Positions 23,366-35,509 of a DNA stretch of 64,000 bases are shown here, one piece after another. The translations under genes were made by a program, and so were the position numbers. Source of the DNA: Gemmatimonadota bacterium (GTDB lineage Bacteria > Gemmatimonadota > Gemmatimonadetes > Gemmatimonadales > GWC2-71-9). Location: contig JAZKBR010000004.1 in the NCBI GenBank assembly GCA_040388535.1, forward strand, positions 186,001 to 250,000, written 5' to 3'. The notes under the pieces are model-generated. The model was given only the letters and a program-made list of their open reading frames with translations. It had not been told where the DNA came from and searched no databases. The stretch's first letter is position 1. Every line of letters begins with the position of its first letter.

Positions 23366-24903
<1,538 letters not shown>

Positions 24904-24981
24904 GGTGACCGGAATCTAGCCACGGCGGCGGATACGGGAGTCCCCCTCAGAAATCGCCGCCCGCAACCGACAACATCTTCC

Positions 24982-26937
24982 ATGAATACCCCTCTTCCGG
25001 GCTCGGGAGCGTCATCCCCACCGCCAGGCGAGAACTGGGGGCGCTGGAACGCGCTCACGGTTCTCGGACTCGTCCTTCTGATGGCCCTCTCGCGCGGGGG
25101 GGCCCTCAAGGTGCATGGCCCCGTCGCCCTGATGGGGATGGTCCTGGTCGTTTCGGGCACCTGGGCGCTGTTGTCCGTCCGGCGGCACGATCGTCATCTT
25201 CGCGCGGCGCTTGCACTCGACGAAGAGCGGCTCCGGCGGACGATCGACGACGCTCCGATCGGCTTGGCGCTCGTGGGGCTGGACGGCCGCTTTCATCGGG
25301 TCAACGCCACGCTCTGTCAGATCGCGGGCTACAGCTCCGAGGAGCTGCTGCAGAAGCGTTTTCACGACATCACCATCGCCGAGGACCTCCCGGGCGACGT
25401 GACACTCCTCGAGCGCACCCTGGCCGGTGAGATCCCGGGCTACACCCTCGAAAAGCACTATCGCCACCGGGACGGACATCCCGTCCCGATCGAGTTGCAC
25501 GTGTCGCTCGTGCGTGGAATGCACGACGAGCCACAGCACTTCATCTCGCAGGTCGTCGACCTCACCGAGCGACGCCGCAGTGAAGCGGCACTCCGGCAGA
25601 GTGAACGCGAATTCGCCACGCTGGCGCGCAATGCCGACGACCAGATCATCCGGTATGATGCCGAGGATCGCTATCTCTACGCCAATCCTGCGGCGCTCGC
25701 CATCGTCCGTCGCGACCTGGCCGACGTCGTCGGACGCTCGCACGCGGAGCTGGGCATTCCTCCCGCCGTTGCTGCCGAGTGGCAGGAGCGGAACGCCGAA
25801 GTGCGTGCCCGCCGCGAGACCGTGGAACGCGAAGTCAGTGTGCCACGCCCTGAGGGCCAGCGCATCTTCGCGTCGAAGGCCACGCCGGAATACGACAGCT
25901 CCGGACGGATGACGTCGATCCTGGTCGTCGCGCGGGACGTGACCGATGCGCGTCGTGCCGAAGCGGCACTGCGCCGCCAGGAAGCTCGTTTCGCGGCCCT
26001 CGTGGAGGATGCCGACGATCCCATCGTGCGCTACGACGGGCAGCTCCGCATCGCTTACATGAACAACGCCATGGGCCGCGTGATTGGCCGGCCCGCCGTG
26101 AGCACGGTCGGGCAGCCTGTGGGAGCCTTCACACCGGACCCGCTCCTCAAGGCACAGTGGATGGCCAAGGTCGGCGAAGTATTCAACTCTGGCCAGAGCG
26201 ACTCGTTCGATTTTTCGATGCACACCGCCGATGGGTCATACCGGCGCTTCGCCTGCCGCTTCACGGCAGAACTCGGGAGCGATGGCCGGCCGGTTGGTGT
26301 CTTCGCGATCGCCCGCGACTTCACTGCACAACACCTGATCGAGACGACCCTGCGTCACCGCGACGAGGAACTGTCGGCGCTGCTCAAGAGCGCCGAAGAT
26401 GTGATCTCGACCTTTGATCGCTCGTGTCGCCATATCTTCGTCAACTCCTCGGTAAAGCTCGCCACCGGCTTTCCGCCGGAGCACTTCATCGGTCGCACCC
26501 TGACCGAAGCCGGTATGCCGCGGCCGCTGGTCGAGCAGTGGGAGAGGGAGATCACTACGGTTTTCGAGAGCGGCAAGCCTGCCTCGGCCGAATTCGCCTT
26601 CCCTTCCCCGGTTGGCCTGCTCCACGTCCTCTCGCGGCTTTCACCGATCCGGGATGCCGACGGGAACGTGGAGTCCGTGCTGGTGATTTCGCGCAACCTG
26701 ACCGAGAAGAAACGGGCCGAACTGGAGCGCGAGGAGCTGCTCGAGAAGCTGACTCGAAGCCAGGCCGCCGTGAAGACCCTCAAGGGCTTGCTGCCGACCT
26801 GCGCCTGGTGTCACAAGATTCGCGATGAGCGTGGCGAGTGGGAACAGATGGAGAGCTACATCTCGCGAAAGACGGACGCCGAGTTCAGTCACGGACTCTG
26901 TCCGTCGTGCGCGGTCACGGTCCTCGAGACACCCTAG
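24982..26937 (+). CDS. Membrane-anchored multi-PAS sensor with cysteine-rich C-terminal motif, no kinase domain
   Basis: 651 residues from the ATG at 24982 (the frame is open further upstream only as an antisense shadow of pccB). Two membrane helices (about 24-40 and 46-64) are followed by four PAS domains in tandem (starting near 83, 202, 325 and 448; first RTIDDAPIGLALVGLDGRFHRVN), each closed by a PAC-type DLTERRRSEAAL or similar. A short coiled coil (ERAELEREELLEKLTRSQAAVKTL-like) leads to LPTCAWCHKIRDERGEW...SHGLCPSC with C607, C610, C640 and C643, a motif often seen after PAS domains in soil bacteria and probably metal-binding. There is no histidine kinase, GGDEF or other output domain, so it probably signals through a partner. 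Confidence 0.85.
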   Translation: MNTPLPGSGASSPPPGENWGRWNALTVLGLVLLMALSRGGALKVHGPVALMGMVLVVSGTWALLSVRRHDRHLRAALALDEERLRRTIDDAPIGLALVGLDGRFHRVNATLCQIAGYSSEELLQKRFHDITIAEDLPGDVTLLERTLAGEIPGYTLEKHYRHRDGHPVPIELHVSLVRGMHDEPQHFISQVVDLTERRRSEAALRQSEREFATLARNADDQIIRYDAEDRYLYANPAALAIVRRDLADVVGRSHAELGIPPAVAAEWQERNAEVRARRETVEREVSVPRPEGQRIFASKATPEYDSSGRMTSILVVARDVTDARRAEAALRRQEARFAALVEDADDPIVRYDGQLRIAYMNNAMGRVIGRPAVSTVGQPVGAFTPDPLLKAQWMAKVGEVFNSGQSDSFDFSMHTADGSYRRFACRFTAELGSDGRPVGVFAIARDFTAQHLIETTLRHRDEELSALLKSAEDVISTFDRSCRHIFVNSSVKLATGFPPEHFIGRTLTEAGMPRPLVEQWEREITTVFESGKPASAEFAFPSPVGLLHVLSRLSPIRDADGNVESVLVISRNLTEKKRAELEREELLEKLTRSQAAVKTLKGLLPTCAWCHKIRDERGEWEQMESYISRKTDAEFSHGLCPSCAVTVLETP

Positions 26938-30981: not shown

Positions 30982-33147
30982 ATGACTTCACCCGCGACTG
31001 CGACATTCCCCGACGCCTGGCTTGGCGCGCCTCTAGTCGAGGCCGGCCTCGTTCCCGAGGCTCGACTTGCCACCCTGGCGCCGTCCGGGAAGGGTCGGCT
31101 GTGGACAGCAGTCGTTGACGCCGGCCTTGCCACCGATGCCGCGATTGCGGGCCTGCTCGCCGCGAAGTTCCGGTTGCCTGTCGCGGACCTGAGCAGCGTT
31201 GATTCACGCGCCGCGACGGTCCTGCCCGAGGCGGCCGCGCGCAAGTACCATGTCGTCGCACTGTCGCTGGACGAGAAGTCGGTCCGTCTTGCCACGGCCG
31301 ACCCCAATGATCTCTCCGCCGAACAGAGTCTGGGCTTCCTGACCGGTCGTGATGTCAAGATGGAAGTGGCATCTCCGAGCGCGATCGCCGAGAAGCTGGA
31401 CGAGTGCTACCGCCCGGAAAACAGCATCAATCGATTGCTCCAGGGTCTCTCCCCTGCCTCGATCGAACTCGAAGCCCAGGTGGATGTCGAGGATCGCGAT
31501 CCGGCCCTCGATGCGCCGATGTCCAAACTGGTGGATGCGATGATCGCTGATGCGGTTCGGATCGGCGCCAGCGATGTGCACAGCGAGATCGAGGGCGCCC
31601 ACGTCATCGTGCGCTACCGGGTCGACGGCATCCTGCGCGAAGTGATGCGCCTCCCGGAAGCGGCCGGTGCGTCGCTCGTGCGGCGCGTCAAGATCGTTTC
31701 GGGCCTCGACGTCACCAACTCGATGACCCCGCAGGATGGTCGCAGTTCGGCGCGTGTCGATGGCCAGCAGGTCGACCTGCGCGTCGCCACGGCACCGGTC
31801 GCGCGGCGCGGCGAAAAGCTGGTCATCCGAATCCTCAACAAGTCGAACCTTCGCGCATCGATTCCGGAACTGCATCTTCCTCCCGACGAGGAAGCAGTGC
31901 TGATGCGGATGCTCGGCCACCGCGAAGGAATGGTCCTCGTCACCGGACCGACCGGATCGGGCAAGACCACCACGCTCTACGCGGTCCTGAATCACCTGCG
32001 CACCGGCAAGGTCAACATCGTCACCGTCGAAGATCCGGTGGAATACGATGTCGACGGCATCTCCCAGATGCAGGTCAATGAAGCGCAGGGCTTCACCTTC
32101 GCCACGGCGCTCCGGTCAGTACTGCGTCAGGACCCGGACATCGTTCTCGTCGGTGAAATCCGCGATGGCGAGACGGCGACGATCGCGATCCAGGCGGGAC
32201 TCACCGGTCACTTCGTCTTCTCGACGCTCCACACCAATGACGCCGTGTCGGCGGTCGTGCGGCTGCGGGACATGGGGGTCGACTCGTTCAAGATCGGCAC
32301 CGTGCTTCGCGGCATCCTGGCCCAGCGGCTGGTGCGCCGCATCTGCGAGCGCTGCGCCGAACCGATGCCGCTCGAGGAGATCCCGGAGGAAGGGCGGCCA
32401 CCCGCGAGCTACACAGGCAAGTTCACGCCGCGCCGCGCGCCCGGATGCAAGGCCTGCAGCGGCAGCGGATTCAAGGGACGAGTCGCGGTGATGGAGCTGT
32501 TGCCGGTCGAGGGAAATGTCGGCCGGCTCATCGAGACTGGCGCTCCGCAAAACCAGATTCTCGAAGCGGCGGTGCCGCACGGGATGCGCACTCTCTGGCA
32601 AAGCGGCCTGGTGCGCTTCTGGCTCGGCATGACTTCGTTCGAAGAGGTGCGCCGCGTACTCGGCGACACCGACCGCGGCGCCAGCGAAGAGACGACGCAG
32701 GAGGCCGCGGCGATGGCCACCAGCAAACGGGCGCCAGCGCGTCAACCGACCACGACGTCACCCGATGGTACCGGTGCCACCGTATTGCTGGCCGACGACG
32801 ATGCGCAGATGCGCCGACTCCTTCGCACCGTGCTCGAACGGGAAGGTTTCAAGGTGATCGAGGCGACCGATGGCCTCGAAACACTCGAGGCGATCGACAC
32901 GCAGGGCATCGACCTCGTGCTGCTTGACCATGACATGCCGCGACTGACCGGGCTGGGCGTGCTCGAAGAACTGCGGGCACAGATGGCAACGTCGGGACTG
33001 CCGGTCATCATGCTCACAGCGCGTACCGACGATACTGAAAGCCAGGCGCTCGAACTCGGCGCCCAGGACTACCTCACGAAGCCCGTTCAACCGCGGTCGC
33101 TCGTGGCCCGCGTGAAGGCCGTGCTCAAGCGCACAAGGATGGAGTGA
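30982..33147 (+). CDS. PilB/GspE-type secretion ATPase fused to a C-terminal receiver domain
   Basis: Traffic ATPase that would power assembly of a type IV pilus or type II secretion pseudopilus. From the ATG at 30982 (MTSPATATFPDAW) it has 721 residues. N-terminal MshEN/T2SSE-N-like domain about 10-150; ATPase core with IGASDVHSEIEG, Walker A GPTGSGKTTT near 322, Walker B region LRQDPDIVLVGEIRDGET and STLHTNDA; then paired cysteines CERC and CKAC of the GspE zinc site. After a Thr/Ala-rich linker (about 570-598) comes a complete CheY-like receiver with DDD, phosphoacceptor D649 (LLDHDMP), Thr and TKP. ATPase-receiver fusion is unusual; it implies phosphorylation control of pilus assembly. 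GTGA overlap with a second receiver gene. Confidence 0.9.
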   Translation: MTSPATATFPDAWLGAPLVEAGLVPEARLATLAPSGKGRLWTAVVDAGLATDAAIAGLLAAKFRLPVADLSSVDSRAATVLPEAAARKYHVVALSLDEKSVRLATADPNDLSAEQSLGFLTGRDVKMEVASPSAIAEKLDECYRPENSINRLLQGLSPASIELEAQVDVEDRDPALDAPMSKLVDAMIADAVRIGASDVHSEIEGAHVIVRYRVDGILREVMRLPEAAGASLVRRVKIVSGLDVTNSMTPQDGRSSARVDGQQVDLRVATAPVARRGEKLVIRILNKSNLRASIPELHLPPDEEAVLMRMLGHREGMVLVTGPTGSGKTTTLYAVLNHLRTGKVNIVTVEDPVEYDVDGISQMQVNEAQGFTFATALRSVLRQDPDIVLVGEIRDGETATIAIQAGLTGHFVFSTLHTNDAVSAVVRLRDMGVDSFKIGTVLRGILAQRLVRRICERCAEPMPLEEIPEEGRPPASYTGKFTPRRAPGCKACSGSGFKGRVAVMELLPVEGNVGRLIETGAPQNQILEAAVPHGMRTLWQSGLVRFWLGMTSFEEVRRVLGDTDRGASEETTQEAAAMATSKRAPARQPTTTSPDGTGATVLLADDDAQMRRLLRTVLEREGFKVIEATDGLETLEAIDTQGIDLVLLDHDMPRLTGLGVLEELRAQMATSGLPVIMLTARTDDTESQALELGAQDYLTKPVQPRSLVARVKAVLKRTRME

Positions 33148-33530
33148 ACGTGGCGAAGATCCTGATCGTGGAAGACAGCCCCGACAACATGAAGCTCTTC
33201 CGCACGCTGCTCGTGCTGAAGGGACACGAAGTCCACGGCTTGCCAGGCGGCGAGGAGTTGTTCAGCACGCTGTCGGCCGGGCTCCCGGAGCTCGTCCTGA
33301 TGGATATCCAGATGCCGGGCAAGGACGGCTTTGCGCTGCTCGCAGAAATCCGCGCATCGGAATTCCGCGACCTTCGCGTCATTGCGCTGACTGCCCACGC
33401 CATGTCTGGTGATCGGGAAAAGGCCATGTCGGCCGGGTTCGATGGCTACATCACCAAGCCGATCGACATCCGGCTCTTCCCGGAACAGGTGCTCAAGGCG
33501 CTCGCGGGAGAATCGCCGCAGGATGGCTAA
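33144..33530 (+). CDS. Single-domain response regulator (CheY/DivK-like)
   Basis: Stand-alone receiver of 128 residues: KILIVEDSPDNMKLFRTLL at the start, phosphoacceptor Asp in LVLMDIQMPGKDG, switch Thr in IALTAHAM and the KP pair in GYITKPIDIR. No output domain. The GTG at 33144 overlaps the ATPase-receiver stop by 4 nt; a second GTG at 33150 is also possible, better spaced from AAGGA. It is likely to share a kinase with the fused receiver of its neighbour, but no kinase gene is adjacent. Confidence 0.9.
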   Translation: MNVAKILIVEDSPDNMKLFRTLLVLKGHEVHGLPGGEELFSTLSAGLPELVLMDIQMPGKDGFALLAEIRASEFRDLRVIALTAHAMSGDREKAMSAGFDGYITKPIDIRLFPEQVLKALAGESPQDG

Positions 33531-34047
33531 GGAACGGGGCCTCCGCCGTGCCGGAGGGAAGCGCCTCAGCGAAGCGGGTTCCTCCCGACTCCTCCAGCAG
33601 ATCCAGGCGGAGGTTCTCGAGGAACTTGAGGTCCACGCCGCGGCCGCGTCGGTCCCGGTCGCGCCGCAGACGGCGCCCAGCGGCTGGCTCGCTGGCGCGC
33701 TGCTTACCTGGATCCTCGTCGCCGCGCTTCTGATATTCCGTCCCGGCTTTACTCGCGGCCCGGCAGACACCCCGGTCGCGCTGCCACCTTCGCTACATGA
33801 AGCCTCGAATCGGTACGGCATCTGGCTCGCCGATGGTGCCGTTCGCCGGTTCTTCGCGGCGAATCACCGGATGCCATCGTTTCTTGGCGAGGCAGGTGTC
33901 AGCGACACGACCCTGCGGATGCGGGTGACGGGAGAGCGGACCTACGAGTTGCAGGCGGGTGAGGGAGAGACGCTGCTGAGCTTTGCGAGTGGTAGCTCGA
34001 TCGATGCATTCCTCGGCGAAAGCATCAGCCTGCTGCGAGGCGAGTGA
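33523..34047 (+). CDS. Single-span membrane protein of unknown function (paralogue A of the pilus cluster)
   Basis: I do not recognise this 174-residue protein (ATG at 33523, overlapping the preceding gene by 8 nt). It has a basic cytoplasmic part with a short helix (SSRLLQQIQAEVLEELEVHAAA), one membrane span at about 55-72 (WLAGALLTWILVAALLIF) and an outside part of about 100 residues. The outside part resembles the product at 34554-35063 along its length: R[YL]xI[YW]L...NxR[LM]P..L.E.G and the closing S[IV]D[AS]FLG[ED]. Position suggests an accessory of the pilin system; bitopic topology would suit an assembly or alignment protein. Confidence 0.75.
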   Translation: MAKERGLRRAGGKRLSEAGSSRLLQQIQAEVLEELEVHAAAASVPVAPQTAPSGWLAGALLTWILVAALLIFRPGFTRGPADTPVALPPSLHEASNRYGIWLADGAVRRFFAANHRMPSFLGEAGVSDTTLRMRVTGERTYELQAGEGETLLSFASGSSIDAFLGESISLLRGE

Positions 34048-34050
34048 CGA

Positions 34051-34488
34051 CTACCAGCAGGCCACCGTCCCGGGCCGCACGATCAGTCGATGCGGCGACG
34101 CTTCGGGTGGGCCGCGGAAGATGCCGCAGGTTGCCGGAGAAGTCGTCAGCAACGAGTCGCCGACCACTGCATTCCACGATTCAGCGGACTGGCTCTCGAA
34201 CCTGAGCTGCACACCGGGAGAAGGGGTAAAGCCGAGCGTGTCTCCTGCGCTCGTCGTGCCGAGTGCGAGGGCGTAGCGGCCTGTGTGCGAGTACCACTCC
34301 GACTGGGCCTGATCGAGTCGGAGGAGTTCGGCGCGAACGGCGTCGTGTCGCCGACCGTCTTCCCGGCGAGCGATCGCGCTGGACAGAATCATCCAGACGA
34401 TGGCGGCCCCGCCGAGCGCGGTCAGAGTCATCAGGGTAAAGGTCCAGGGCCGGGCCGGCGTGTTGGGAGTCGCAGTGGGAAGGGTCAT
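34051..34488 (-). CDS. Pilin-like protein lacking the prepilin cleavage motif
   Basis: 145 residues: a membrane span near the N-terminus (about 16-38, FTLMTLTALGGAAIVWMILSSAI), a helical segment (DAVRAELLRLDQAQSEWYSHTGRYA) and a C-terminal disulfide-type region (SWNAVVGD...CGIFRG...RPGTVACW). That tail matches the canonical pilin at 35057-35509 (GWVATITN...CGSYVG...REGTPACY), so the fold is pilin-like, but there is no Gly|Phe-T-L-I-E peptidase site and no Glu at +5. Convergent with the upstream paralogue gene, only 3 bp between stops. It could be an uncleaved minor pseudopilin. Confidence 0.7.
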   Translation of the reverse strand: MTLPTATPNTPARPWTFTLMTLTALGGAAIVWMILSSAIARREDGRRHDAVRAELLRLDQAQSEWYSHTGRYALALGTTSAGDTLGFTPSPGVQLRFESQSAESWNAVVGDSLLTTSPATCGIFRGPPEASPHRLIVRPGTVACW

Positions 34489-34553: not shown

Positions 34554-35063
34554 ATGACAACACCAGACTCCAGGGAGCACCAACTCGGCGACGCGATCAA
34601 GGGCGTCATCGATGGACAACGCCAGTCAGCGACCGAGCTTCGCGATCTTCGCGCCGATCGGATACGGCACGAAGGGCATGCCAAGTACCAACCGGGACTG
34701 CTCCTCTTCATCGTCGCGGCCTGGGCCTTCATCGGGTACGTCTGGATCGCCCGGCCCGCCTTCCTGTTTGAGCAGCAACCTGCCGCAGCACTCACCCCGG
34801 TGCAACGCGAAGCCCGCCTGCGCTATGCCATCTATCTGCAGCGCGCGCGCATCGATGCCTTCAAGGCCCAGAATGGTCGCCTGCCGGAGTCACTCCGGGA
34901 GACCGGCCCGGTCGAGAGCGGGGTGCAATACGAGCGAACCGCCGACAACGGGTACGACATCTTCGGTGCCAGCGACGGCACGGTGTTGCGCCTCAGCGAT
35001 CGGATGTCGGTTGACTCGTTCCTTGGCGATGCCCGCCAGCACCTGCCCCCACCGATTCAGTAA
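34554..35063 (+). CDS. Single-span membrane protein of unknown function (paralogue B of the pilus cluster)
   Basis: 169 residues with AAGGAG 10 nt before the ATG at 34554. A polar N-terminal region rich in charged residues (ATELRDLRADRIRHEGH) is followed by a membrane span at about 47-66 (PGLLLFIVAAWAFIGYVWIA) and an outside domain (RLRYAIYLQRARIDAFKAQNGRLPESLRETGPV ... DRMSVDSFLGDARQHL, shown with a gap). The outside domain is similar to paralogue A. The pattern of a helix followed by NGRLPESL also recalls the first part of pilin globular domains. Its stop overlaps the convergent pilin gene by 7 nt. Function unknown. Confidence 0.75.
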   Translation: MTTPDSREHQLGDAIKGVIDGQRQSATELRDLRADRIRHEGHAKYQPGLLLFIVAAWAFIGYVWIARPAFLFEQQPAAALTPVQREARLRYAIYLQRARIDAFKAQNGRLPESLRETGPVESGVQYERTADNGYDIFGASDGTVLRLSDRMSVDSFLGDARQHLPPPIQ

Positions 35064-35509
35064 CACGCTGGTGTTCCCTCACGCGTGACCGCCGCGTTCG
35101 GCGCGTAGGTCGGCGAGCCGACGTATGACCCACATGTGGTGAAGCCAGCGGCGGTGATGCCCGGGTTCGTGATCGTTGCGACCCAGCCCGCTCCGGTCGC
35201 GCTGTTGGGATTCTTTCGCGTCAGGGAGAGGACGTTCCCGGGACTGAGCCGGAAGGAGAGCACCCCACTCGACAAGGGCGACCCGGGCACTTCAGGACCG
35301 GCGGTGACACTCCCCGCGTAGTCAGCATAGGTGGAAAAGAACGCTTCCTGTGCGCTCACAAGATTTCGCAGATCCGAGATCATTGACGCCTTGATCGCCC
35401 GCATCTTGGTCGCCTGCACCTTCGGGAAGGCGATGGTGACCAGAATGCCGATAATAGTGATCACGGTGAGCAGTTCGATCAGCGTGAATCCCCGCCGCGC
35501 GTTCCGCAT
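35057..35509 (-). CDS. Type IV pilin / pseudopilin
   Basis: 150 residues with a textbook prepilin leader: ARRG|FTLIELLTVITIIGILVTIAFP, short basic leader, cleavage after Gly7, Phe as new first residue and Glu12 as the +5 glutamate. Helix then SMISDLRNLVSAQEAFFSTYADYAGS and a beta-rich tail closed by two cysteines (TTCGSYVG ... TPACY). GGAG is 8 nt before the ATG at 35509. It lies 27 nt downstream of tRNA-Leu on the same strand. Likely substrate of the ATPase at 31-33 kb; the prepilin peptidase and platform protein are not in the window. Confidence 0.93.
   Translation of the reverse strand: MRNARRGFTLIELLTVITIIGILVTIAFPKVQATKMRAIKASMISDLRNLVSAQEAFFSTYADYAGSVTAGPEVPGSPLSSGVLSFRLSPGNVLSLTRKNPNSATGAGWVATITNPGITAAGFTTCGSYVGSPTYAPNAAVTREGTPACY

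Follow-up and report, generated by a model that had tools for sequence, protein, structure and literature searches.

What is known of two-component input to type IV pilus motors comes mostly from receivers that are proteins of their own, and how these act on PilB at the molecular level is, to our knowledge, incompletely worked out. In the Pil-Chp system of Pseudomonas, PilG controls PilB and PilH opposes PilG (PMC12632253, PMC10519157). Extension ATPases of the PilB/MshE type combine an MshEN region with a T2SSE core, and the published c-di-GMP motif of MshEN, as given in the main text of its description, is RLGxx...LxxxLxxQ in two copies, with binding possible even when the motifs are imperfect (PMC5013675). 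According to the same text, MshEN also occurs together with REC, and Bd2402, an MshEN-containing response regulator, binds c-di-GMP tightly (Wang et al. 2016, PMC5013675). The relevant passages of that main text describe no motor in which T2SSE and REC are fused, and the supplement may list such an architecture; our search of the open-access literature found neither a T2SSE-REC study nor a motor family of this kind. A PhoB/PleD-like REC joined to an enzyme in one chain is otherwise familiar from PleD and similar enzymatic response regulators.

We analyzed a window, meaning the whole stretch of 64,000 nucleotides taken from a Gemmatimonadota assembly (GCA_040388535.1, contig JAZKBR010000004.1, positions 186,001 to 250,000), in which one gene joins a motor ATPase to a receiver (Table 1). 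From ATG 30982 to TGA 33145-33147 it runs for 721 codons without interruption, and its product matches the Pfam families MshEN (residues 63-146, E = 1e-16), T2SSE (177-558, 2e-120) and Response_reg (601-712, 3.4e-30). The PF00437 score of 402.3 bits, against a Pfam cut-off of 24.9, places the protein in the ATPase superfamily; Walker A (GPTGSGKTT), ASDVHSE, the Walker B Glu392, His417 and the CxxC...CxxC cysteines are all found. Similarly, the fused receiver scores 104.9 bits on PF00072 and has all five active-site residues. The first-pass annotation had read here one unbroken frame for a complete PilB/GspE-type ATPase and a complete receiver with D649, and open frame, domains and catalytic residues all bear this out. 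The stop-to-stop frame extends 5' to ATG 30802, and the start of the closest homologue (L009) matches the position of 30982, not the upstream ATG. In the AlphaFold model the core and the (beta-alpha)5 receiver are confident and residues 564-595 are of low confidence, so that the linker between them is predicted to be disordered. Foldseek with the ATPase core returned Geobacter PilB 5tsh as the best match along with other extension motors, and the closest solved relatives are the Geobacter PilB structures 5zfr and 5tsh. Domain order and catalytic set are those of PilB/MshE-type ATPases; unlike these, the fusion has a C-terminal REC, lacks the c-di-GMP signature and falls below the TIGR02538 and TIGR02533 cut-offs. 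With PleD-type regulators it shares a PhoB/PleD-like REC joined to an enzyme, but its REC is C-terminal and its output a ring-ATPase motor.

Table 1. Positions in the window of the fusion gene, its domains and the genes that follow it.
Feature	Position	Strand	Basis
T2SSE-REC fusion, PilB/GspE-type ATPase with C-terminal receiver, 721 aa	30982..33147	+	Pfam; orthologues; AF2 model mean pLDDT 85.7
MshEN region, residues 13-146, degenerate c-di-GMP motif (R9->W13, G40->W41, Q61->K62)	31018..31419	+	Pfam MshEN; NF053729 without match; alignments
T2SSE ATPase core, residues 177-558, intact catalytic and zinc residues	31510..32655	+	Pfam; Foldseek
Flexible Thr/Ala linker, residues 559-599	32656..32778	+	pLDDT < 50 at 564-595; dN/dS 0.55-0.91
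Receiver domain, residues 601-712; D606, D607, D649, T679, K700 intact	32782..33117	+	Pfam; dN/dS 0.09-0.12
Predicted phospho-acceptor codon Asp649	32926..32928	+	D in 116/122 fused copies
Separate single-domain receiver, 128 aa	33144..33530	+	Pfam 3.3e-25; adjoins fusion in 12/13 clade A loci
Membrane-anchored protein, pilin-like head, paralogue of 34554-35063 product	33523..34047	+	Alignment; no Pfam match
Pilin-like protein without recognised N-methyl leader	34051..34488	-	Clusters with 35057-35509 pilin; L009 homologue without Pfam match
Membrane-anchored protein; family near fusion in 10/13 clade A loci	34554..35063	+	Weakly pilin-like model
Type IV pilin or pseudopilin, N-methylation motif	35057..35509	-	Pfam N_methyl 1.5e-8

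T2SSE and REC in one chain, an architecture to be sought in relatives according to the first-pass annotation, were found in at least 100 of 249 sampled Gemmatimonadota genomes (about 106 by hand tally, verified or spanning), a count that is a lower bound from a non-random sample because loci were picked by similarity to the window protein. A first search of the 249 genomes had given at least 44 with a match running through the receiver; the final batch of 60 loci comprised 51 T2SSE-REC, 8 T2SSE-NUDIX and 1 with REC in another frame. The same genome carries a second T2SSE-REC on another contig (C8; 46% identity). Homologues are thus far from being two separate genes in all relatives; in this clade a fused gene is the norm. 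Independent assemblies contain full-length fusions at 57-75% identity and the receiver has a dN/dS of 0.09-0.12, which rules out chance or sequencing error. It is vanishingly unlikely that a missed stop or frameshift joined two genes here. One assembly (L251, assembly error or decay), where ATPase and receiver are read in different frames, lends that reading some color; against it stand around 100 fusions found intact in other assemblies, the single clade on the tree and purifying selection on REC, which contradict a stop or frameshift in the linker.

In a tree of the ATPase core, on which unfused relatives within the Gemmatimonadota clade (e.g. L164, L167) did not figure, 47 Gemmatimonadota fusions grouped as a single clade (bootstrap 100, SH-aLRT 99). 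It divides into subclade A, which holds the window protein, subclade B, which holds its paralogue from the same genome, and subclade C. The receiver tree, with few columns and many weak forks, gave mostly the same grouping. On these trees, the Gemmatimonadota fusions go back to one ancestral fusion. Three fusions from Desulfobacterota and Myxococcota fell outside the clade, and their placement elsewhere on the core tree implies at least two origins. Among 118 Desulfobacterota genomes searched at a strict threshold, 5 had matches through the receiver, the query's own included, and inspection confirmed a fusion in all four others, at one locus per genome. These separate fusions suggest that the motor-receiver arrangement has been useful more than once.

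Against three close orthologues, dN/dS was 0.09-0.12 for the receiver, 0.11-0.18 for the core and 0.55-0.91 for the linker, values that are only rough since synonymous sites are near saturation. By this measure the fused REC is under strong purifying selection. The ATPase set (Walker A, Asp-box Glu, Walker B Glu, His box and tetracysteine zinc site) is intact in 121-122 of 122 fused copies, and all five receiver active-site positions are retained in 114 of the 122, a collection made with an HMM built from active receivers and therefore possibly biased toward intact ones; a separate inspection covered the loci that gave no receiver match. Overall, these comparisons confirm the fusion as not unique to this genome and as biologically maintained. 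A few copies have lost REC or its active site, and a sub-lineage of clade B (L151, L154, L177, L178, L197, L198, L289, L292-L298) has no REC; its ATPase carries at the REC position a NUDIX domain similar to the one encoded by the free-standing NUDIX gene that lies downstream at other clade B loci. The receiver is therefore not indispensable everywhere. At one locus (L157, 5554-10858) two tandem fusions, of which the first has a receiver with a degraded active site, are followed by Hpt and a free REC.

The MshEN region of the fusions has diverged at the positions that define c-di-GMP binding. On NF053729, a model of two RLGxx...Q motifs for which a score above 38 is required, the genome's unfused PilB scores 62.0 bits and the outgroup fusions L014 and L019 score 54.8 and 50.7, and no match at E<=1 was found in the three Gemmatimonadota fusions tested, namely the window protein, its paralogue and L016. 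Trp replaces the first Arg of the motif in 121 of 121 readable Gemmatimonadota copies and the second-motif Gly in 117 of 122, and most copies have Arg in place of the final Gln. In an alignment that is gappy here, 19 of 24 unfused relatives keep the first Gln but only 1 of 47 Gemmatimonadota fusions does, and none of the 47 has the second. c-di-GMP binding is accordingly predicted to be lost in the Gemmatimonadota fusions, whereas Bd2402, as described in the main text cited above, binds the nucleotide. The first-pass annotation had set c-di-GMP control at MshEN beside the fusion, but the motif for it is lost in this clade. W13 and W41 of the window protein, with their equivalents, make up a near-invariant Trp pair at the motif positions, and these two conserved tryptophans suggest that MshEN has another job in the fusions. 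In eight loci (L150, L174, L176, L184, L186, L187, L190 and L194) a gene for a REC-GGDEF diguanylate cyclase lies directly upstream of a motif-less fusion.

Contig C2 of the same genome encodes an unfused PilB and, after it, PilT and PilC. On the PilB equivalog model TIGR02538 the fusion scores 491.4 bits, below the curated cut-off of 675.65, and the unfused PilB scores 744.2; on the GspE equivalog TIGR02533 the fusion reaches 496.5 bits, below the cut-off of 630.25. The fusion is hence ruled out as the main PilB of the genome. A further unfused PilB/GspE-like ATPase of 563 aa, very divergent and on a long branch, is encoded on contig C7 (L222, 6734-8422). No platform protein (PilC/GspF) linked to the fusion was found: the only T2SSF protein recognised in this 98%-complete genome, where a divergent one could be missed, lies beside pilB-pilT on the other contig. 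Of the 52 family genomes with a match, 29 show only two T2SSF domains, as many as a single platform protein has. With only one recognisable PilC, the fused motors probably act on a shared platform.

Taken together, we lean towards reading the fusion as an auxiliary PilB/GspE-type motor of a pilus or pseudopilus, with its response regulator built in and gated by a phosphorelay. Asp649 would receive phosphate from a histidine kinase, which in relatives is often an Hpt-bearing hybrid, and receivers around the hexamer would then alter its assembly, its ATPase rate or its recruitment to the membrane platform. Phosphate would replace c-di-GMP as motor input, and the fused motors would use the shared PilC in place of PilB, building either the main pilus or, from the pilins encoded alongside, a pseudopilus. 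Weighing against this reading are the clade A loci, where no kinase or Hpt was found next to any fusion examined, the housekeeping surroundings of clade B with few two-component genes, scores under the PilB and GspE cut-offs, and copies whose receiver is lost, degraded or replaced by NUDIX. Retained receiver residues and a lost c-di-GMP signature suggest that a phosphate relay, not c-di-GMP, switches the Gemmatimonadota motors. More tentatively, the input may have changed across the phylum, a PilB-type motor losing its c-di-GMP site and gaining a covalent phospho-receiver, such that one platform is driven alternatively by a c-di-GMP-gated PilB or by one or more phosphorelay-gated REC motors. 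The earlier proposal that pilus extension is switched directly by phosphorylation of the motor finds partial support: a single chain, phosphorylation residues kept phylum-wide and phosphodonor genes beside relatives' fusions agree with it, but the motor in question is not the main PilB. Since motor and receiver form a single purifiable protein, phosphorylation and ATPase activity are measurable together; moreover, signature loss and receiver within one clade, beside an unfused PilB that keeps the signature, offer a natural comparison of two gating modes of the same engine.

The linker bears on how such a receiver would act. It is variable in length and long in clades A and B and spans 11-18 residues in most of clade C. 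A receiver that serves as a targeting or assembly tether, where phosphorylation relocates the motor to the pole or platform or drives REC dimerisation with ATPase chemistry unchanged, would fit the long, length-variable and probably disordered linkers of clades A and B better than tight allostery does, and PilG affects PilB localisation in Pseudomonas (PMC12632253); we consider it rather unlikely, the short linkers of most clade C members speaking against it.

Gene neighborhoods differ among the subclades. Clade A loci show, in order, a gene on the other strand upstream, which we take by eye from its sequence to be aroA, then the fusion, the free receiver (12 of 13 loci) and the membrane-anchored protein family, with N-methyl pilin genes beside the fusion in 7 of 13. 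Clade B fusions have a DUF5686 outer-membrane protein upstream and often a NUDIX gene downstream; their surroundings are housekeeping, and pilus genes were not recognised at these loci. An ATPase that no longer powers a filament and acts as decoy or competitor for the platform or for PilB subunits, restraining piliation in one phosphorylation state, would account for this missing linkage, for several PilB-like ATPases facing one PilC and for scores under both motor cut-offs. Such a role nevertheless seems improbable given that the catalytic set and zinc cysteines persist in nearly all copies, which is unexpected for a decoy, and that clade A is linked to pilins.

In clade C the fusion has directly upstream of it a hybrid kinase with a terminal Hpt, a gene for Hpt alone or a REC-GGDEF regulator, the first two being candidate phosphodonors for a phosphorelay-gated motor. 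Two-component genes occur within two genes of the fusion in 12/13 clade A, 4/23 clade B, 21/28 clade C and 3/3 outgroup loci; relative to positions four or more genes away, the enrichment has p values of 2e-7 for A (where the signal is the free receiver itself), 0.09 for B, 4e-8 for C and 0.001 for the outgroup, all assuming independent loci even though the genomes are related. For example, a PAS-HisKA-HATPase-REC-REC-Hpt kinase is directly upstream of the fusion in L133 and L140, and local HMMs place the same type upstream in L170, L182, L185 and L191. Hpt genes adjoin fusions in L014, L139 and L157, and a REC-HK adjoins the separate Desulfobacterota fusions. In the window and in all clade A loci examined, no kinase or Hpt adjoining the fusion was found. 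The co-conserved kinase sought by the first-pass annotation has its counterpart beside the fusions of relatives. In this genome, a PAS-HisKA-HATPase-REC-REC-Hpt kinase (L221, 5105-10059; G000:C2:510287-512221) is the best candidate donor for its fusions; it adjoins a REC-PAS-GGDEF-EAL protein, and its tie to the window locus is one of architecture alone. Neighboring hybrid kinases that contain several RECs plus Hpt, like neighboring REC-GGDEF regulators, might also be expected if the ATPase were constitutive and the receiver served chiefly to drain phosphate or to pass it on within a larger phosphorelay. This is very improbable, as a sink needs no motor and the motor fusion has persisted phylum-wide and arisen more than once.

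The free receiver that follows the fusion extends the likeness to Pil-Chp, the nearest working precedent, with predicted phosphorylatable receivers on an extension motor and, as we propose, a second receiver as antagonist. The Pseudomonas receivers are separate proteins served by a CheA-like kinase, whereas here the receiver sits on the motor, and the donors beside relatives' fusions are PAS-HisKA hybrids with Hpt. By analogy with PilH toward PilG, the free receiver may put a brake on the fused one or compete with it for phosphate. The gene itself, first described as overlapping the fusion by GTGA, is real; the overlap is possible rather than certain, as translation may begin at GTG 33144, which gives the overlap, or at the in-frame GTG 33150, favored by the orthologues L010 (VTMAHVLI...) and L011 (MADILI...). 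One clade A genome apparently has no free REC.

Downstream, three small membrane-anchored proteins with pilin-like heads and no recognised N-methyl leader (33523-34047 and 34554-35063 on the plus strand, 34051-34488 on the minus strand) recur beside clade A fusions, and two of them have long N-terminal extensions. For the 34554-35063 product, Foldseek gave weak pilin matches (best E 0.07-0.15), suggestive of a pilin-like fold. Elsewhere in the window, the plus-strand open reading frame 24244-26937 has PAS matches only, without a kinase domain, and overlaps minus-strand open reading frames.
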